A DNA stretch of 47,038 nt from a virus: IMG/VR virus record IMGVR_UViG_3300025030_000176, positions 1-47,038 of that record; one strand, written 5' to 3'. Shown here in pieces: positions 1 through 23,197 of the stretch (the first letter of the stretch is position 1; each line of letters begins with the position of its first letter). Position numbers and translations under genes: made by a program. The notes below the pieces were generated by a model that was not told the DNA's origin, did no database searches, and saw only the letters and a list, made by a program, of their open reading frames with translations.

Positions 1-67
1 TCACGTAGTCACCAGCTACTACGAGACCGATGCCGATCGGTTTCTCGGCGATCACCAGGAGGCGTAA
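1..67 (+). CDS. 3' end of a hypothetical gene, cut by the window edge
   Basis: The reading frame starting at base 2 encodes 21 residues ending GDHQEA and stops at TAA 65-67. It is identical to the end of the gene at 505-783, and the identity continues for 50 bases past the stop (1-117 equals 717-833). It is either a tandem duplicate of that gene or an assembly overlap. No function is known. Confidence 0.55.
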   Translation, partial: HVVTSYYETDADRFLGDHQEA

Positions 68-145
68 CTGGCAGACCGAGGCCACCTCACCGTGTGGTGC
101 GCCTCGCGTCTGGGAGTTAGACCCAGAAAAAAGACAGAGAGGACT
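68..145 (+). repeat. Intergenic hairpin repeat, copy A
   Basis: This is the first of four related intergenic repeats. It begins right after a TAA, holds the core ACCGTGTGGTGCGCCTC, then a CTGGG...CCCAG inverted pair, then a purine-rich ribosome binding site for the next gene. The left arm has small deletions compared with copy B, so the stem is bulged. No run of T follows, so a simple rho-independent terminator is unlikely. Confidence 0.7.
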
Positions 146-147
146 AG

Positions 148-426
148 ATGATGTCGATATCGGAGCTGGTCGCACAGCTCAGGGAAGCACATCCCGCGGC
201 CGAGGTGTTTGAGACTCGGCCCAATACGGTATTCTCCGGCCGGCGGCCGGAGGGTGACCCGGCAGGTGCCATCATGTTTGAGCGCCTGCCAAGCGGCCAG
301 AGACGCGAGACTCGGTTCGATGGGACATCTGGTGTCCTGATCCCATTCGAGACGAACGAGTACTGGCCGCGGCCGCCCGGCTGGTTCCTTCCTCAGAATG
401 AGGACGGAATGGGCTGGCGTAACTGA
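148..426 (+). CDS. Hypothetical protein (92 aa)
   Basis: A soluble protein with no motif I recognise. It starts at ATG 148, or possibly the adjacent ATG 151, behind an AGAGGA ribosome binding site. It ends in an aromatic, Pro-rich stretch (WPRPPGWFLPQ). Repeats of the same hairpin family lie immediately before and after it, like its two neighbours. That suggests a cassette of small, independently movable genes. Function unknown. Confidence 0.75.
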   Translation: MMSISELVAQLREAHPAAEVFETRPNTVFSGRRPEGDPAGAIMFERLPSGQRRETRFDGTSGVLIPFETNEYWPRPPGWFLPQNEDGMGWRN

Positions 427-500
427 CAGACGCGAGGCGCACCTCACCGTGTGGTGCGCCTCACGTCTGGGAGTGAACCCAGAAACGAAAGAGAGGAGAC
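427..500 (+). repeat. Intergenic hairpin repeat, copy B
   Basis: This copy forms the best stem: a 17-base arm at 427-443 pairs with 453-469 with one G-U pair, around a 9-base loop (444-452). The right arm then overlaps a second possible stem, CTGGG...CCCAG, so the two folds compete. A GAGAGGAG ribosome binding site follows. This could be an attenuator, a processing site or a transcript-end stabiliser. Confidence 0.75.
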
Positions 501-504
501 AGAA

Positions 505-783
505 ATGAACAGACAATACTATGCCCTCACCAGCCAGAATCCCCAGCTGCTCGGCTGGCGGATCGTCGGCCTCGGCGTAACTGCCGCCGAGGCCGAGCGC
601 GTAGCCATAGCTACGTTGCCCCCGCTGCGGGCCGATGATCTCTTCGCCCAGACCGACCACCGCAATCTGCGCATCGTTAGCCGTACCGAGGCGCGGCGGC
701 GGTACGGCATCACTGATCACGTAGTCACCAGCTACTACGAGACCGATGCCGATCGGTTTCTCGGCGATCACCAGGAGGCGTAA
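505..783 (+). CDS. Hypothetical protein (92 aa)
   Basis: ATG 505 is chosen because AGAGGAG lies 8-9 bases upstream; the open frame reaches further back only through the hairpin repeat. The N-terminus (YYALTSQNPQLLGW) reads as a small mixed alpha/beta fold, and the middle has an Ala/Glu-rich helix. There are no catalytic motifs I can name. The last 67 bases are duplicated exactly at the window start. Confidence 0.75.
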   Translation: MNRQYYALTSQNPQLLGWRIVGLGVTAAEAERVAIATLPPLRADDLFAQTDHRNLRIVSRTEARRRYGITDHVVTSYYETDADRFLGDHQEA

Positions 784-848
784 CTGGCAGACCGAGGCCA
801 CCTCACCGTGTGGTGCGCCTCGCGTCTGGGAGTGACCCAGAAACGAAA
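784..848 (+). repeat. Intergenic hairpin repeat, copy C
   Basis: It is identical to copy A up to base 833, then diverges. The sequence beyond it looks like the tail of another gene rather than a ribosome binding site, as if recombination had joined two units inside the repeat. Confidence 0.65.
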
Positions 849-915
849 GCGGCTTACTGGCCGGCAGTGGGACCGGCGGGCCGACGCGATCACGCTGGAG
901 GAGATTGAGAGTTGA
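832..915 (+). pseudogene. Possible remnant of a gene 3' end (27 codons)
   Basis: From GTG 832 a short frame encodes a basic peptide ending in DAITLEEIES, with a protein-like helix pattern. Its stop (TGA 913-915) overlaps the next start as TGATG, the usual sign of coupled genes. There is no ribosome binding site or recognisable N-terminus, and it begins inside the hairpin repeat. I read it as the surviving end of a gene whose front was lost by recombination. Confidence 0.35.
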
Positions 916-1277
916 TGACCAATCAGCAGAACCAAGCACCGCGCTGCCGGATCGAGGGCTTCATTAACGGCGTTGCTGCCGCCCGCAGTGGCGCACTTTA
1001 TCCCGTCCGCATGGGGCGGATGGAGATCGCCGATCTGATGGGTTGGCAGGACAGCGGGCGCGCCGTGCCGGTGATCACCGGCACCCTCAGGCTGCTGGCC
1101 GAGGGTAAAGCGGTCAAGTTGACCAGTCACAATGGTCACGTCACCCTGCTGCCGCTGCGCGACGACGAAGACGGCTCTGGCCTGCCGGCCAGCCTTACCA
1201 CTGTCTACACCTCCGAGGGGCAGACAGTGGAGCAATGGCCGCCGCGTAGTGAGTGGCGGCCTGTCGACGGCTCGTAG
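915..1277 (+). CDS. Hypothetical protein (120 aa)
   Basis: It starts at ATG 915 behind GGAGGAGATTGAG, with a TTG directly upstream as an alternative. The sequence has alternating hydrophobic beta-strand-like stretches (VPVITGTLRLL, AVKLTSHNGHVTLLPL), suggesting a small beta-rich fold. No known motif is visible. Hairpin repeat D follows the stop. Confidence 0.75.
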   Translation: MTNQQNQAPRCRIEGFINGVAAARSGALYPVRMGRMEIADLMGWQDSGRAVPVITGTLRLLAEGKAVKLTSHNGHVTLLPLRDDEDGSGLPASLTTVYTSEGQTVEQWPPRSEWRPVDGS

Positions 1278-1278
1278 T

Positions 1279-1335
1279 ATCACCGTGTGGTGCGCCTCGC
1301 GTCTGGGAGTTAGACCCAGAAAAAAGACAGAGAGG
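1279..1335 (+). repeat. Intergenic hairpin repeat, copy D
   Basis: It matches copy A almost exactly over the core and through the GAGAGGA ribosome binding site. The left arm of the large stem is missing, but the CTGGG/CCCAG stem remains. Copies A and D are therefore closer to each other than to B and C. Confidence 0.65.
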
Positions 1336-1341
1336 ACATAG

Positions 1342-2090
1342 ATGACAACGAAGATCCGTCAGGGGTGGAAGGTCCTAACACACGACTACCGCCCGTACAA
1401 GGGGGCGATCCTGTCTGGGACGGGACTACCCTGCCGTGGACGTTGCCCGCCGTGCCGCTGGACACGACCACGGCGGAGTATGGGTCCGGCTGGCACTATT
1501 GTGCCACGCTGGCTGCTGCCCTCCAGGTGGCTGGGCTGTGGCCGGACGGCTGGCCGGTCGTGGTGCTCAGGATCGAGGCGTCCAAGGACGCACTCCCGCG
1601 GGGTCGCAAATACCGTGCGAGCCAGCTGACGATCATGCGCCGCGCCGACGACACCGAGATCGCCGAGGCGATCCACGCGCTGTCGGCCGGCTTCGGCCGC
1701 CACCAGGATCAGATGGCGGTGGAGCAGCTCGCGTGGCGCGAGGCCCTGGGCCGACCGCGGCACGATCCTGTTGCCGTCGAGCGATGCTTGCGTGAGGCCC
1801 TGGAGGCCCGCGGACTGGCCGCCTGGCGGCTCCAGCCCTTCGACACGGCCCGGGACGCCTGGGCCGCCTGGGCCGCTCGGGCCGCCGGGGCCGCCTGGGC
1901 CGCCTGGGCCGCGCTCGTGGTGACCTATGCCTCGCTAATGTCATGGGTGCCTCGGGCACCCGACCGGCTTACCAGAGGGCTGCGCGAGGCGTATGCCGGC
2001 GGACTGGCGCTGGCGATCCCGGTCGCGCCCGGCATCCTGGGTTATGCCCTGGTGGAGCGCATGCATTCACCAGGTACGCCGGTGTCCTAG
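1342..2090 (+). CDS. Hypothetical protein with apparent -1 frameshift near 1390
   Basis: ATG 1342 has a good GAGAGGA ribosome binding site and encodes a start ending GWKVLTHDY. The protein then continues one frame back (PPVQGGDPVWDG onward) to TAG 2088-2090. The joined product is about 248 residues. The WKVLTHD...GGDPVWDG...P opening is a pattern I associate with phage proteins of unknown function. Residues about 170-190 form an Ala/Trp repeat (AWAAWAARAAGAAWAAWAA), encoded by near-repeats of GGCCGCCTGG. The shift could be real, programmed or a sequencing error; no classical slippery heptamer is present. A GTG at 1365 could start the second frame alone, but it would lose the conserved opening. 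Confidence 0.6.
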
Positions 2091-2168
2091 CTGTTCTCGC
2101 TGTGTGAGACCGGCAGCCGACGAGGCCAGACTCGCGCAACTGACAGAAGAAAGAGAGGAAGAGAGACG

Positions 2169-2507
2169 ATGAGACTCCTGCTCAATGCCGCCATGGTGCC
2201 CAACCCCGGTATTTTTCGCTACCAGCAGATCAGCCGCGACGAAGCGGTTGCCTGGCTCAAGAGCGCTGCGCTCGCTCCGGAGCGAGCGCAGTCCTACATT
2301 GGCTACCCCCAGACGGCAGAGCACATCAATCAGCTCTCCGGCCGCCGGATGGACGTGCCGCTCAATCGCGCCAAGTGCACGATGCGCCTCGGTGATGAGG
2401 CCTTTGTCTGCAAGCTGGCCTACCGGCTGGAGAACCCCGCAACCAAGGGCCAGCCCCAACCCGAGGACTGGGAGTACGGGTTGCTGGAGATGCTCGCCGA
2501 TGCCTAA
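2169..2507 (+). CDS. DUF1874 family protein, AcrIII-1 (anti-CRISPR ring nuclease)-like
   Basis: The 112 residues follow the DUF1874 (STIV B116/AcrIII-1) plan: LLLNAAMVPNPG at 3-14, an EAVAWL helix, the IGxxxTA segment at 44-50, VPLNR at 63-67, a beta stretch GDEAFVCKLAYRL at 75-87, and EYGLLE at 102-107. Known AcrIII-1 proteins bind and cut cyclic tetra-adenylate, the alarm signal of type III CRISPR systems. The usual active-site His of the IGH motif is Tyr46 here (IGYPQTA). Arg86 and Glu102 could match the other conserved residues. It may bind cA4 without cutting, cut by another route, or have another role. RBS GAAAGAGAGGAAGAGAG is strong. The family is fairly sure, the activity is not. Confidence 0.8.
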   Translation: MRLLLNAAMVPNPGIFRYQQISRDEAVAWLKSAALAPERAQSYIGYPQTAEHINQLSGRRMDVPLNRAKCTMRLGDEAFVCKLAYRLENPATKGQPQPEDWEYGLLEMLADA

Positions 2508-2748
2508 GCGCCGGCGAGTCTGTCTCGACTGCGGCGCGGCGCTGGTCAATCCTCATGCCTTGCGCTGCCGATCTTGTGCCGCCCGGCAGCGCCACCGGAC
2601 GCGGCCGCCGGCTACCCGCTGGACGCCGGCGACGGGTGCGCGGGCGCGGGAAGCCGCCCAGCGCAAGCACGCGCTGGACGCTGAGGCGCACCAGGATGTC
2701 GAGCGGCTGCGGGCGGAGGTCGCGCGGCTCCGCGAGGGCGCGGCATGA
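2500..2748 (+). CDS. Small zinc-ribbon protein (82 aa)
   Basis: It starts at ATG 2500, overlapping the stop of the DUF1874 gene by 8 bases, so the two are translationally coupled. Two Cys pairs, CLDC and CRSC, sit about 15 residues apart near the N-terminus and form a likely zinc ribbon, followed by basic residues and a C-terminal charged helix (VERLRAEVARLREG). A nucleic-acid-binding role is plausible. Its coupling to a putative anti-CRISPR protein makes it a candidate partner or autoregulator. Confidence 0.75.
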   Translation: MPKRRRVCLDCGAALVNPHALRCRSCAARQRHRTRPPATRWTPATGARAREAAQRKHALDAEAHQDVERLRAEVARLREGAA

Positions 2749-3050
2749 CCGGCACCAGCAAGGGAAACTACCACACCGGCCGGCAACGGCGGATGGTGGC
2801 TCCTACCAGGCAGCGGATGTTGGCAACGGCGGTGGCGTTCCGCTCCCCGCCCGAGTTCGGCGGTGGCGCCATCTTGCCGGCGACCCGGGTGGCGAACGTG
2901 GCGCACGCGCTGCTGACGGCGGTGAGCTACCAGTCGTACCCGGGCCAGTTGGATGAGGTGCGCCAGATCGCGCGGCAGCTCTACCGGCTGGCCGAGCTGC
3001 ACGAGGCGGGCGAGCTGGGCCCGATCGTGGACGACGGTTCACCGTTTTGA
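2745..3050 (+). CDS. Hypothetical protein (101 aa)
   Basis: It begins in an ATGA overlap with the preceding stop. The N-terminal third is basic and Gly/Arg-rich. The C-terminal two thirds are helical (LDEVRQIARQLYRLAEL). No family recognised. It belongs to the same coupled run as the DUF1874 and zinc-ribbon genes. Confidence 0.7.
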   Translation: MTGTSKGNYHTGRQRRMVAPTRQRMLATAVAFRSPPEFGGGAILPATRVANVAHALLTAVSYQSYPGQLDEVRQIARQLYRLAELHEAGELGPIVDDGSPF

Positions 3051-3088
3051 GCGAGGCGACGAGACTTGACGAGAGAGGAGACGAGACG

Positions 3089-3355
3089 ATGGCAGAGACG
3101 CTGTACGACGACACCTATACAGGCGACCGTTGGACCTACGGCCTCACCTACCGGCCGCTCGGCTACGCGCAGGTGCCGGCCGGATTTATCGTTTGGTCGG
3201 ACCGCCCGCATCCCGACTTCCGCTTCGGCACCATCGACTACCCCGAGCCGTTGCCGGAGCGCGTGGCGCAGCAAGCGAGTCTCACCCTCGTGGCCGTCAT
3301 GAACTCCCGGCTAAAGCCGGGGAGCTTGTGCCTAGAGCTGCACCATGAACGCTAA
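3089..3355 (+). CDS. Hypothetical protein (88 aa)
   Basis: ATG 3089 is chosen because GAGAGGAGACGAG lies just upstream; the open frame runs back to 3047 without a better start. The protein is rich in Tyr, Trp and Pro (TYGLTYRPLGYAQVPAG) and ends in a helix. It looks like a small beta-rich fold. Function unknown. Confidence 0.7.
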   Translation: MAETLYDDTYTGDRWTYGLTYRPLGYAQVPAGFIVWSDRPHPDFRFGTIDYPEPLPERVAQQASLTLVAVMNSRLKPGSLCLELHHER

Positions 3356-3468
3356 CGCCCAGGGACAGCCCCGACACGTGCGTCCACCTGGCCGCGGCTA
3401 TCTGGCGGGCGCAGGACGAGCGGGCGGCGCAGCGGCGGCAGTTGCGCGTGGTAGAGAGAGGAGCGTAG
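3345..3468 (+). CDS. Small hypothetical protein with apparent single-base frameshift
   Basis: ATG 3345 overlaps the end of the previous gene. After MNANAQ the protein-like sequence jumps one frame at the GGG of 3362-3364 and continues as DSPDTCVHLAAAIWRAQDER..., ending at TAG 3466-3468. Removing one G restores an intact frame of about 40 codons. The second frame has no start of its own. It could be a sequencing error or a recently broken gene. Confidence 0.4.
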
Positions 3469-3471
3469 GCG

Positions 3472-3816
3472 ATGACCTTCGACGAGATGAAGTGCGAGCT
3501 CCAGGAACGCGCACTGGAAGAGTTTGAGGCCCTCACCGAGGAGCGCCGCCTGGTGGTGGAGTTCGACGCGAAGTGCGCCGTCAAGCTGCTGTTCGCGCTG
3601 GCCCGGGCCTCGCACCATACCAAGGGGATCATCCGCGAGCAGTGCCTCGAGCTGGGCCGCGATATCCAACGGCAGTATCTCGAACCGGGCAGCGTGCTGG
3701 ACGGGTGCGTCGATCTCATGTGGGAGCGCGACGACCTCGTGATGAGCCTCGTGGAGACGATTCCCGTGCCGGACGCCTTCCGCATCGCGTTCAAGGAAGT
3801 GCACCGTGAGGATTGA
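3472..3816 (+). CDS. Hypothetical helical protein (114 aa)
   Basis: It starts at ATG 3472 behind AGAGAGGAG. It is acidic and almost wholly helical: an N-terminal amphipathic helix (EMKCELQERALEEFEAL), then KLLFALARASHHTKGI, then a C-terminal helix. No catalytic motif. It overlaps the next gene by 11 bases. Function unknown. Confidence 0.75.
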   Translation: MTFDEMKCELQERALEEFEALTEERRLVVEFDAKCAVKLLFALARASHHTKGIIREQCLELGRDIQRQYLEPGSVLDGCVDLMWERDDLVMSLVETIPVPDAFRIAFKEVHRED

Positions 3817-4099
3817 CCCCCTGGGCCAGATCCAGGAATTGACCCAGGCCCTCGCTCAGGAGCAGCGCATGCGCCGGCGCTGCGGCGAGCACTGCGCCGC
3901 ACTGGAGCGTGAGGTGACGCGCTTACGGGTGCTGCTCCATGAACTGCTGGACGACGCGCCGGCGGTGCTGCCGGACGGCGACGGAGCTATCGTGCCCCGC
4001 CGGGATCGCGCGGCCTACGCGGCGGCACTGGACCGAGCGCGTGCCGTGCTGGAGTCGCCTACGCCGCTACCTTCGCCGCCGCGAGCACCTGGTCGATAG
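3806..4099 (+). CDS. Hypothetical coiled-coil protein (97 aa)
   Basis: It starts at GTG 3806 inside the previous gene, indicating coupled translation. Residues about 8-48 form a long charged helix with two Cys (RRRCGEHCAALERE), followed by a Pro-rich tail. It is the last gene of the plus-strand run and overlaps the minus-strand response-regulator gene tail to tail by 41 bases. Confidence 0.7.
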   Translation: MRIDPLGQIQELTQALAQEQRMRRRCGEHCAALEREVTRLRVLLHELLDDAPAVLPDGDGAIVPRRDRAAYAAALDRARAVLESPTPLPSPPRAPGR

Positions 4100-4442
4100 C
4101 GGCGGTGAGTTCAGACACCGAGTACGGCTTGCCGACGAACCCCGCGGCGCCCAGCCGCGCCGCCTGCTGCCGGCCGTCCGCGGCCCCCGAGCAGACGACG
4201 ATCGGCGCCGTGCCGCCCTGCTCGCGGTAGACGCGGGCAAACGCCGGGCCGTCCATTCGGGGCATCTGCAGGTCGAGCAGGATGGCGTCCGGCTCACCGT
4301 GGCGGGCGATCTGGCGCAGCGCGCAGGCGCCGTCGTGCGCCAGCGTCACCCCGTAGCCGTCCAGGACCAGGATCTCTGCCGCCACGTGGCGCAGCACCTC
4401 GTCGTCCTCGACCACCAGGATATGCCTGCTCACGTCGCTCAC
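4059..4442 (-). CDS. Response regulator receiver domain protein (127 aa)
   Basis: A stand-alone CheY-like receiver. The acidic pocket is VVEDDE (Asp13, Asp14), the phospho-acceptor is Asp57 in LLDLQM, the switch Ser is Ser85 and the conserved Lys is Lys105 in GFVGKPYS, so every catalytic position is present. It has no output domain. The start is GTG in a GTGA overlap with the holin stop. It is the last gene of the lysis end of the late operon. Receivers are normally bacterial; here it may be a captured gene that sequesters a host kinase or acts on host signalling. The family is certain, the role is unknown. Confidence 0.9.
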   Translation of the reverse strand: MSDVSRHILVVEDDEVLRHVAAEILVLDGYGVTLAHDGACALRQIARHGEPDAILLDLQMPRMDGPAFARVYREQGGTAPIVVCSGAADGRQQAARLGAAGFVGKPYSVSELTAAIDQVLAAAKVAA

Positions 4443-4669
4443 TTGAGCACCTTTGGGACAGCGCCGGCGTCTTCGAGCGCGTTCTGGGTCCATGAGAGCA
4501 GCGCGATCACCCCCGCCACGGTGGCGGCAATCAGCACGCGCTTGGCGGTATCCGTGTCCGGGAGCGTGCCGGGGGACAGGTTAAGCGCCATCCAGGTCGC
4601 CAGTAGCGTCCCCACGAAGGACTGCACAAAGGTCCGGGTGGCGCGTTTCAGAGCATCGGCTAGGGGCAC
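4439..4669 (-). CDS. Putative holin (76 aa)
   Basis: A small membrane protein with an N-terminal helix typical of phage holins (ALKRATRTFVQSFVGTLLA) and two hydrophobic segments at about 12-30 and 44-60, separated by a short loop. Holins form lesions in the cytoplasmic membrane to release or activate endolysin. It lies three bases from the endolysin gene and overlaps the response-regulator start by four, consistent with a lysis cassette. Confidence 0.8.
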   Translation of the reverse strand: MPLADALKRATRTFVQSFVGTLLATWMALNLSPGTLPDTDTAKRVLIAATVAGVIALLSWTQNALEDAGAVPKVLK

Positions 4670-4671
4670 GG

Positions 4672-5313
4672 TTACACCTCCTGCAGGGCTTTGGTGATCA
4701 ACTGGTCGGTAGTACCGCGCTTCAGGCGGCGGCGGGCTTCGAGGTGCCGCAGCAGGTACTCGAACTCGGCTTTCAGTGCGTTGATACGGGCTTGGTCGAC
4801 CTCGAGCGCGCTGATTCTGTCCAGCAATGCTTGACGTTCTTCGTGGGTCATAGCGTCTTCCTCCTGTTGCGCGGCTAGTTTCGTCAGCACCGGATACGGG
4901 TCGACGTAGCCGCCGTAGCCGTTGCCACGGTCGAACCCCGGCGGCCGGAGTCCCAGGTGCAGGTGCGGCCCGCTGCTGTTGCCGGTGCTACCCGAGAGCG
5001 CCAGGTCTGCGCCCCACGCGACGCGCTCGCCGGACGCCGCCAGTGCCATCCGGCAGTGGCCGAACAGCCAGATGCGCCCCGAGTCGGCGGTCAGCGTGCC
5101 GTAAATGCCGTAGCCGACGAGCCGGCCTTGGGCGTCGATGTCGAGTCCCGTCCACCACACGCCCGGCTCCGGCGCCCGCAGCAGCGTGCCTACGGGCATG
5201 CCCAGGTCCAGCCCGTTGTGGCCCTTGATGTCGTAGATGCGGTAGTCAAAGTAGCGCATCTCGCCGAATAACTGCGTGATGCGGTGGTCACCGTCCCAGG
5301 CCAAGCTCTTCAT
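4672..5313 (-). CDS. M23 family peptidase, endolysin or tail-associated lysin (213 aa)
   Basis: The N-terminal domain is a zinc-dependent M23 metallopeptidase that cuts peptidoglycan cross-links: GHNGLDLG (His32, Asp36), GHC (His86) and HLHLG (His117, His119). The C-terminal about 60 residues are a charged helix (LLDRISALEVDQARINAL), probably for oligomerisation or targeting. ATG 5313 is chosen because GGAAGAG lies upstream and the start overlaps the stop of the preceding small gene. The holin neighbour makes an endolysin role most likely. Confidence 0.88.
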   Translation of the reverse strand: MKSLAWDGDHRITQLFGEMRYFDYRIYDIKGHNGLDLGMPVGTLLRAPEPGVWWTGLDIDAQGRLVGYGIYGTLTADSGRIWLFGHCRMALAASGERVAWGADLALSGSTGNSSGPHLHLGLRPPGFDRGNGYGGYVDPYPVLTKLAAQQEEDAMTHEERQALLDRISALEVDQARINALKAEFEYLLRHLEARRRLKRGTTDQLITKALQEV

Positions 5314-7479: not shown

Positions 7480-7622
7480 CGGATATGCAAAGAGCCGCCA
7501 GGCGGGCGCACAGTGGCGCACACGTGGCGGCTCTCAGAAGGGTGGAGCTCGGTATGGAGTTGTCGGCTGCTGTCGCTAGTGTAGCATGGCTCTGTTACGG
7601 TGCGAAAGGTACACTGTGCCGC

Positions 7623-8093
7623 ATGCTGTTGCTACAACTGCTCGTGACGGTCTGGTTCAACGGCCTGGCGGTGCCGTGCGTCGTCGACACTGGGGCCGCC
7701 TTCACCGCAGTGCGCCGCTCCGTCTACGATGCGATCCCCCAGCAGCCCGTGGCGCCGCGAGCGCGGCCGTTCCCGCGCTATCTGTTCCCGGTGACCGTCA
7801 TGACAGCGAACGGCGCGCTCGTGCATGGTGTCGTGGAACCGGTCCACGAGGTGCGCACCGAGTACCTCACCTGGCACGATGCCGAGGTGTTAGTCGTGGC
7901 GGACGAGCAGGCCGCGTTTTCCTGCCTGCTCGGTGCCAACCTCCTCAGACAGCAGCCGCTGGTGCTGGATTGGGAGGCGCAGACGGTAATGCCACTAGAA
8001 CGGCTGTTGGCCCGTCCCGAGGACGAAATCCCAGTAGAAGATGGCTTGGGTCCCGGACGCATGGGAAACGCCAGTCCCGCCGTCGACCAGTGA
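7623..8093 (+). CDS. Retropepsin-like aspartic protease (156 aa)
   Basis: A lone plus-strand gene inside the minus-strand tail operon. From ATG 7623 the protein reads LVTVWFNGLAVPCVVDTGAA, with the clan AA active-site motif DTGA at 22-25, then beta strands, a second hydrophobic block (AFSCLLGANLL) and WEAQTVMPL, the order seen in single-domain retropepsin-like proteins that dimerise to cut peptides. A weak GAAAGG lies upstream; the frame also opens earlier (7485), but without family-like sequence. It overlaps the end of the facing tail gene by 99 bases. Its role in the phage is unknown: processing of virion proteins or a host-interaction gene. Confidence 0.72.
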   Translation: MLLLQLLVTVWFNGLAVPCVVDTGAAFTAVRRSVYDAIPQQPVAPRARPFPRYLFPVTVMTANGALVHGVVEPVHEVRTEYLTWHDAEVLVVADEQAAFSCLLGANLLRQQPLVLDWEAQTVMPLERLLARPEDEIPVEDGLGPGRMGNASPAVDQ

Positions 8094-21565: not shown

Positions 21566-21985
21566 ATGGCCCATGTGCTGTATACTTTCTTCGTGGAGTA
21601 CGAGACGACGGCACACGCGGTCCATTTGCTGGTCTACCACCTGATCTGGTGCCCGAAGTACCGTCGCCCGGTGCTGGATGGCCCGATCGCCGCTCGTCTG
21701 CGGGAGCTGGTCTCGACGGTAGCCGATGAGCACGGCTGGACTGTCGTGGAGGCAGCCATCCAACCTGACCACGTGCATCTGTTTCTGCGTTGCCGGTCCA
21801 CGGATGCACCGCACCTGGTGGTACGTGCGCTCAAGGGTCGTACCAGTCATGCGCTCCGGCAGGAGTTCCCTGCGCTCAAGCGGCGCTTGCCGACACTCTG
21901 GACGAGGAGCTACTTCTGCGCGAGTGCCGGGAATGTGAGCGCTGCCACGATCCAGCGCTACATCGAGGCCCAGAAGGGTGTCTGA
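21566..21985 (+). CDS. tnpA: IS200/IS605 family Y1 transposase TnpA (139 aa)
   Basis: A complete HUH single-strand transposase. The HUH metal motif is His69-Val-His71 in QPDHVHLFL and the nucleophile is Tyr132 in IQRYIEAQ. The length is usual for the family. It cuts and rejoins single-stranded ends, probably during replication, at TCAT targets. TnpB starts four bases after its stop. Confidence 0.93.
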   Translation: MAHVLYTFFVEYETTAHAVHLLVYHLIWCPKYRRPVLDGPIAARLRELVSTVADEHGWTVVEAAIQPDHVHLFLRCRSTDAPHLVVRALKGRTSHALRQEFPALKRRLPTLWTRSYFCASAGNVSAATIQRYIEAQKGV

Positions 21986-21988
21986 GTA

Positions 21989-23197
21989 GTGATGCCCGTC
22001 TTGACGGCGACCATCAAGCTCAAGCTCCACCCCACGCTGGAAGAGGCGGCGGCCTTTACGGCCACCCGTGAGGCCTTTACGGCCTGTTTCAACCATGTTT
22101 GCGCCTACGGCTGGCAAGAGGGTGAGTGCAACGGGACCGCCCTGCACCGGGCCACCTATGTGCCACTGCGGGCCGAGTACCCGACGCTGCCGAGTCAGTT
22201 GGTGTGTGCGGCGCGCGTCAAGGCCACCGAAGCGCTCAAGGCGGTGCATGCCCGCCAGCAGCAGGGGCGCAACATGACCTGCCCGCAGTCCGATGGCATC
22301 GCCATCCGCTACGACGCCCGCAGCAGCTGGGTCCGACTTGGGCCGGGTGAAGCCAGCGTGACCACCGTGGTGGGTCGTATCCGGTTGCCATTCCGTTTGT
22401 GCGACCACTATCAGCGGTACCAAGACTGGCAGGTCCGCAGCAGTGACCTGTGCCAGGATCGGCGCGGTCGGTGGTTCCTGCATGTTGTGGTGCAGCAGAC
22501 CATCGAGGCGCCTCTCCCAAACGGCGAGGTGATTGGCATCGATCTGGGCATCCGGCGTATCGCCGTCACGAGCGACGGCCGGAACGCCACCTTCTACAGC
22601 AGTGGACACCTGACCGACCGGGTACGCCGCTACCAACGGCTGCGCCGGTCTCTCCAGGCCAAAGGCACCAGGAGCGCGAAACGCCATCTGCGGCAGCTTG
22701 GACGTGACTGGCAACGGTTTACGGCCTCGGTCAACCACGTGATCGCGCGGCGCATCGTGGACGCCGCTTCTCCAGGCACTGTGTTCGGTATCGAGGATTT
22801 GAACGGCATCCGTGATCGCTGCAAGCACCGCAAAGGCGAACAGCGGGGACGGTTCCACCGCTGGAGCTTTGCCCAGTTGCAAGGCTTCCTGCGGTACAAA
22901 GCAGCGGCGGCGGGGCAGCACGTCGTCACGGTTGACCCGCGCTACACGTCCCAGACGTGTCTGCGCTGCGGCCACGTGGCCCGCGGGAACCGGCGGACGC
23001 AATCGTTGTTTGTCTGCCAGGTCTGCCATTTCAGTCTCAATGCCGATCTCAGTGCCGCGCGGACTCTTCGCCGGCGAGCCATCGACTCGTTGGTGGCGCC
23101 GTTGTCAGGCGGCGTATCGTGTCAGGACGATGGTTCGGTGTTCGCATCGAATGGTCGTCTTAGGCGCAAGCTCCCGGCTTCAGCCGGGGGTTCCTGA
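21989..23197 (+). CDS. tnpB: TnpB, RNA-guided nuclease of the IS element (402 aa)
   Basis: All three RuvC residues are present: Asp185 in GIDLGIRR, Glu269 in FGIEDLNG and Asp353 in NADLSAA. A zinc finger with CxxC pairs 324/327 and 343/346 sits between the second and third. The usual N-terminal beta-barrel and helical lobe precede. TnpB proteins use an RNA made from the element's right end to cut DNA next to the transposition target sequence, which favours element retention. GTG 21989 or ATG 21992 is the start. The last bases of the gene form the right end. Confidence 0.93.
   Translation: MMPVLTATIKLKLHPTLEEAAAFTATREAFTACFNHVCAYGWQEGECNGTALHRATYVPLRAEYPTLPSQLVCAARVKATEALKAVHARQQQGRNMTCPQSDGIAIRYDARSSWVRLGPGEASVTTVVGRIRLPFRLCDHYQRYQDWQVRSSDLCQDRRGRWFLHVVVQQTIEAPLPNGEVIGIDLGIRRIAVTSDGRNATFYSSGHLTDRVRRYQRLRRSLQAKGTRSAKRHLRQLGRDWQRFTASVNHVIARRIVDAASPGTVFGIEDLNGIRDRCKHRKGEQRGRFHRWSFAQLQGFLRYKAAAAGQHVVTVDPRYTSQTCLRCGHVARGNRRTQSLFVCQVCHFSLNADLSAARTLRRRAIDSLVAPLSGGVSCQDDGSVFASNGRLRRKLPASAGGS

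Follow-up and report, generated by a model that had tools for sequence, protein, structure and literature searches.

The viral DNA analysed here (a 47,038-base record, the whole of which we call the window) carries a gene for a 112-amino acid DUF1874 protein in which tyrosine stands in place of the catalytic histidine of the AcrIII-1 and Crn2 ring nucleases. Because two residues that define that active site, a His and a Glu, are both replaced, the protein is a DUF1874 member that is not a canonical AcrIII-1/Crn2 ring nuclease. Our leading reading, to which we give a probability of roughly 40%, is that it is an anti-type III CRISPR protein that captures cyclic oligoadenylate without the fast His chemistry, as a sponge or a slow cleaver; taken more broadly, it may still act as the ring nucleases do, by disarming a cyclic oligoadenylate signal. 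The catalytic His is regarded as a hallmark of AcrIII-1/Crn2, and a clade that has replaced this residue, the Glu that pairs with it and the lid over the pocket (the "GY" proteins below) offers a natural experiment for telling binding from cleavage in anti-defence against type III systems. That a His-to-Tyr swap is fixed across a viral protein family suggests that these proteins silence the alarm in a different way. The features of the window that concern us are the following:

2169 to 2507, + strand: GY-type DUF1874 gene (AcrIII-1/Crn2 fold), 112 amino acids; from the PF08960 match and the AlphaFold2 model
2298 to 2318, + strand: IGYPQTA motif, Tyr46 (codon TAC at 2304-2306) replacing the catalytic His; from column counts
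2421 to 2447, + strand: rebuilt lid loop Y85-R-L-E-N89-P90-A-T-K93; from column counts and lid residues 81-93 of AFV3-109
2500 to 2748, + strand: 82-amino acid ORF, zinc-ribbon-like (CxxC/CxxC); from sequence, Pfam hits all sub-threshold
2745 to 3050, + strand: 101-amino acid ORF of unassigned function, continuing the series of overlapping genes

The 2169-2507 frame opens with ATG, 5' of which is a purine-rich stretch resembling a ribosome binding site (GAGAGGAAGAGAGACG), and its coding bias is strong (GC content of 0.66, 0.44 and 0.82 at codon positions 1, 2 and 3). It had been proposed that this gene is translationally coupled to a zinc-ribbon protein; the 8-nucleotide overlap between its end and the 2500-2748 ORF is real, and coupling is what we infer from it. 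The CxxC...CxxC arrangement of the latter ORF was recognised by eye, and it matched no Pfam family above that family's cut-off and none at E 0.01. It overlaps the 2745-3050 ORF in turn through an ATGA, and Pfam and PHROG searches with that ORF gave no match. The zinc ribbon as a functional partner is unsupported, no such gene having been seen beside the relatives examined (by eye, with a simple home-made gene caller).

Membership of DUF1874, the starting point of the original prediction, is borne out by a match to PF08960 (DUF1874, STIV B116-like; E value 3e-10, 40.6 bits against a curated cut-off of 26). PHROG 5063 also matches the protein (E 1.6e-8), NCBIfam gave no match, and in a sequence search of the PDB only AFV3-109 (E 0.0076) and STIV B116 (E 0.029) come near. 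The PADLOC Csx16 profile matches it more weakly than PF08960 does (E 7.5e-6, 24.7 versus 40.6 bits), and since a classical Crn2 in the Chloroflexota genome G228 matches the same profile, this does not single out Csx16, models of which are reported to resemble 2J6B (PMC12409355). The predicted fold was likewise expected to be AcrIII-1-like, and structure prediction and superposition returned just that. A single-chain AlphaFold2 model (mean pLDDT 91.0, pTM 0.83) finds only DUF1874/Crn2 chains among its top 17 Foldseek hits, 16 of them at E <0.001, and VIA-align gives it Z scores of 14.4 to Csx1-Crn2 H495A with cA4 (8y7g), 13.1 to the AcrIII-1 entry 6scf and 12.9 to 2j6b, against 2.6 for the first unrelated row (rmsd from 6scf and 8y7g 2.1-2.4, with 102-107 residues aligned). 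The model of a second GY protein, L008, scores 14.8 to 2j6b and 13.3 to 6scf. A modelled fold in common with AcrIII-1/Crn2 is of course no proof of a function in common.

The motif I44-G45-Y46-P47-Q48-T49-A50 puts Tyr46 in the conserved-His column, where AcrIII-1 and Crn2 read IGH, as had been noticed at the outset. This residue is Tyr in all 27 GY proteins (window included) and His in all 22 classical members aligned. In the AFV3-109 structure, His45 is described as hydrogen-bonded to Glu86 of the opposing monomer and near Arg64, Asn6, Glu86 and Thr48 are in contact with a glycerol molecule next to it, and residues 81-93 help cover the cavity (PMC1796864). In AFV3 numbers, the GY proteins keep Asn6 (27/27), Arg64 (27/27) and Arg83 (25/26; the divergent GY protein L042 is without an equivalent), which in the window protein are Asn6, Arg67 and Arg86; the Thr48 position is Thr in 19 and Asn in eight. 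The Glu86 position, Glu in 19 of the 22 classical members, is Asp in 15, Asn in four, Glu in one and other residues in five of the 25 GY proteins counted, and the window protein has Asn89 there. A new Tyr precedes Arg83 in 24/26 (window Tyr85 before Arg86) and the Gly87 position is Pro in 22/26 (window Pro90), so that the GY lid consensus is YRxx[DN]PxxKG and the window protein reads YRLENPATKG. Since the changes extend to the partner Glu and to the lid, the GY active site has been rebuilt, which is more than a point mutation. AcrIII-1 (SIRV1 gp29), STIV B116 and AFV3-109 thus share with the window protein PF08960, the predicted fold and the pocket Asn, Gly, Thr, Arg and Arg, but they have His, Glu and an RLPEG lid where it has Tyr46, Asn89 and YRLENPATKG, and they belong to a separate clade. 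Host-encoded Crn2 (e.g. Marinitoga Csx1-Crn2) has the same fold (Z 14.4 to 8y7g), but it lies in CRISPR loci and keeps the His, whereas the window gene is carried by a phage and has IGY.

SIRV1 gp29 H47A is reported to keep cA4 binding (KD ~25 nM; PMC7213978) and Csx1-Crn2 H495A to have lost cleavage (PMC7293037), so a protein that has lost only the His can still bind tightly, and the simplest reading is that GY proteins retain binding while cleavage has been lost or altered. The same pocket bears on whether they antagonise a nucleotide signal at all. AFV3-109 bound double-stranded DNA in fluorescence titrations (PMC1796864), many DUF1874 records are annotated "DNA binding protein", and one GY gene (L003) is flanked, as judged by eye, by an SNF2-like and a PolA-like ORF, all of which would suit a DNA-binding or regulatory protein. 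We think such a role very improbable, however, as conservation lies in the residues of the cradle pocket and not in a surface patch, and the DNA-binding proposal is older than the cA4 work.

Besides that of the window there are 26 GY proteins, encoded on contigs of uncultivated phages, in a prophage and in metagenome-assembled genomes. Neither an initial scan with P0001 (the window protein) alone nor one with L052 plus P0001 found a relative, and one with L052 only returned a single contig already among those collected. L052, a Chloroflexota gene, was obtained through a Pfam profile search, and scans with small alignments gave L003, then 17 more viral contigs, then three further viral contigs, and in genomes four contigs (Caldisericaceae, Chloroflexi and two Saprospiraceae). 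The patterns used were SYIG[YH][PQ][QA]T plus a second pattern for L003, YIGYPQT plus an N-terminal pattern for the 17, and the N-terminal L[LM]NSAMM(P) pattern only for the three viral and four genome contigs. Circular sampling through a Tyr-bearing pattern was considered and rejected: the N terminus is of the LLNSAMMP or LMNSAMMP type in 25 of the 26, and L052 was obtained through Pfam, so none depended on the Tyr. What the N-terminal pattern selects is a single clade, beyond which intermediates may have been missed. Duplicate contig copies were left out (L023-L032, L034-L038, L040, L041, L043, L048-L051, L068, L069), a single residue distinguishes L018 from L019, and L020 (75 amino acids, cut at a contig end) is in the column counts and out of the trees. 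We chose the 22 classical members ourselves from those matched records that were read, in most cases taking one for each type of virus or plasmid, and added the G228 gene; they represent crenarchaeal viruses, phages of Fusobacterium, Vibrio, Hydrogenobaculum, Synechococcus and Microcystis, plasmids and one CRISPR locus; L004/L005 (Fnu1, whose protein is identical to FNU2) are not counted separately.

In a tree built from 26 GY rows and 16 classical ones the GY proteins lie on one side of one branch with support of 99/95, and without columns 45 and 86 (26 GY and 15 classical rows) the same branch has 100/99; several terminal branches are long, and deeper placement is unsure. The window protein, which has the Tyr and the lid YR..[DN]P..KG, falls on the GY side of this branch and pairs with L052 (99/93), its closest relative at 48% identity, the identities of other GY proteins to it reaching down to 25%. 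The suggestion that GYPQT is a conserved phage subtype survives in part: GY is fixed in 27/27, but the core is [IV]GY, and P47 and Q48 vary. Both Tyr codons are used (TAC in 14, TAT in 13), which together with the 27/27 excludes chance or assembly error, and in one GY subclade dN/dS is 0.08-0.31 over 36 pairs (one without a dS estimate), indicating purifying selection and, with the fixed Tyr and its two codons, ruling out a lone mutation or a decaying gene. Among isolated phages and plasmids, searches with P0001 matched two phage and no plasmid records, with L008 24 phage and four plasmid, with L009 no phage and with L022 two phage; none of the matched records read is GY, all having His, so GY proteins are likely absent there. 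PF08960 matches were found three times in 301 Chloroflexota genomes and once in 296 Bacteroidota genomes, and a P0001 search of 29 genomes of the class of G109 (the genome that carries L052) found only G109 itself. We found no description of a His-less or Tyr-bearing DUF1874 protein in the literature searched, most subscription papers lying outside its scope. A 2025 survey is reported to have dropped a few hits without conserved residues as false positives (PMC12409355), so ring-nuclease surveys could overlook GY proteins.

A Tyr that is fixed across so divergent a clade while its codons vary must itself have been selected, and its invariance down to 25% identity exceeds the needs of a mere binder, which favours catalysis or a specific contact. 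GY proteins could accordingly be active metal-independent ring nucleases in which Tyr46, with Arg67 and the partner's Asp/Asn89, replaces the His as general acid or positions the 2'-OH. The partner residue has shifted in step with the Tyr, from Glu to mostly Asp or Asn. At neutral pH, on the other hand, tyrosine performs poorly as a general acid, and Asp is not uniform at the partner site (15 Asp, four Asn and six others of 25), the window protein itself having Asn. Other ring nucleases without the His motif, Crn1 and Crn3, do exist (PMC12409355), but His-to-Ala changes are reported to kill activity in two relatives (PMC7293037, PMC7213978), and on balance we regard a Tyr-based nuclease as unlikely.

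Under the capture reading, we infer that the GY gene product would be a small dimer, shaped like a cradle and with the AcrIII-1/Crn2 fold, by which a tailed bacteriophage would counter the signalling of type III CRISPR systems. The retained Asn6, Arg67, Arg86 and Thr49 would bind a cyclic oligoadenylate, cA4 being the likeliest, and since the fast AcrIII-1 chemistry (a His general acid paired with the other subunit's Glu) has given way to Tyr46 and Asn89 under the rebuilt lid, the signal would be removed from circulation mainly by being held or by slow cleavage. In this putative action it would resemble the phage nucleotide sponges Tad1, Tad2, Acb2 and Acb4 and the cA4-binding Csx15, small signal-sequestering proteins of phages or hosts; we have seen no match in sequence or fold between these and the window protein. 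It has been argued that sponging may be fruitless against type III systems, given how much messenger they make (PMC13148439), and natively expressed AcrIII-1 has been reported not to act as an anti-CRISPR (PMC11065993); the dispute over the role of native AcrIII-1 extends to the GY proteins.

The genomic settings are those of phages and prophages. L052 lies in a Chloroflexota prophage, on a 32-kb contig of G109 with integrase, terminase, SPP1-type portal and amidase genes, and in L046 the GY gene comes after a phage integrase. The terminases of the window phage and the L052 prophage are 25% identical and their portal families differ, so distant phages have the GY gene in common. One base downstream of L052 is a 68-amino acid HTH_31 gene, a layout which we take to resemble acr-aca pairs. 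Inspection by eye suggested the 3' end of a tRNA in this prophage, but ARAGORN detected no tRNA gene, so we claim no tRNA attachment site for it. The G109 genome has a type III-A CRISPR system with Cas10/Csm1, a Csx1 CARF-HEPN effector (E 2.6e-87) and Cas1. Of the other GY-bearing genomes, the Saprospiraceae genome G003 has Cas10a and Csx1/Csm6, in the Saprospiraceae genome G004 a Cas10-like protein is accompanied by two RAMPs and by a CARF-PDDEXK effector, and G001 has a GGDEF-like match only. At E 1e-15 the Cas10 palm family is present in three of five GY genomes versus 40/151 Chloroflexota and 25/148 Bacteroidota, a weak enrichment that is only suggestive, two of the five GY contigs being <4 kb and of unsure binning.

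These effectors also bear on the ligand. The lid that covers the cavity has been rewritten as a block (Tyr85 in 24/26, Pro90 in 22/26), so it might set a new specificity, for cA3, cA6, SAM-AMP or a CBASS or Thoeris signal. The pocket Asn/Arg/Arg is kept, however, and the type III effectors found are of the Csx1 kind (G109) and the CARF-PDDEXK kind (G004), both of which are commonly cA4-driven. Crn4 does show that broad specificity has evolved among ring nucleases (PMC12830947); even so, we consider a different defence nucleotide decidedly unlikely. More broadly, we suggest tentatively, while thinking it the less probable outcome, that GY-type DUF1874 proteins are a separate and widespread phage anti-defence class whose Tyr site and new lid would provide either novel cleavage chemistry or a trap for something other than cA4.

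Several DUF1874 and type III loci met along the way may be recorded here. The DUF1874 gene of G228 lies inside a type III-B-like locus (L081, 5917-6725) and reads IGH; this classical Crn2 gene is next to a SAVED protein and, as judged by eye, has cmr-like neighbours. A YddF-type (IGH) gene adjoins a gene annotated cas1 on a Vibrio aerogenes plasmid (L063, NZ_AP024863), and at a Saprospiraceae locus (L086) RAMPs and a CARF-PDDEXK protein accompany a Cas10-like GGDD protein.

The window itself encodes a terminase, a lambda-type portal, an M23 lysin and an IS200/IS605 element. Relatives of its terminase occur in seven of 301 Chloroflexota genomes (30-55% identity) and in three viral contigs (64% identity), none of these three contigs having a DUF1874 gene in the stretch read. 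There were no terminator- or promoter-like signals beyond chance in positions 1-5000, and Rfam matched nowhere in the window. An intergenic element of about 58 nucleotides is present in four copies (87-144, 444-501, 803-860 and 1280-1337), each directly 5' of a small + strand ORF, with a 31-nucleotide core that has 0-1 mismatch in all four (0 in 100 shuffles) and a predicted RNA hairpin not clearly better than shuffles (z -1.03); it is reminiscent of the start-associated sequences of some actinophages. Positions 1-117 are repeated exactly and directly at 717-833, and the left contig end may have stopped inside this 117-nucleotide repeat. An IS200/IS605-type pair, TnpA (Y1_Tnp) and TnpB (Cas12f1-like TNB), is inserted in the phage genome at 21566-23197, and an ORF with a retropepsin-like aspartyl protease domain lies at 7485-8093 on the + strand amid genes that are mostly on the - strand.
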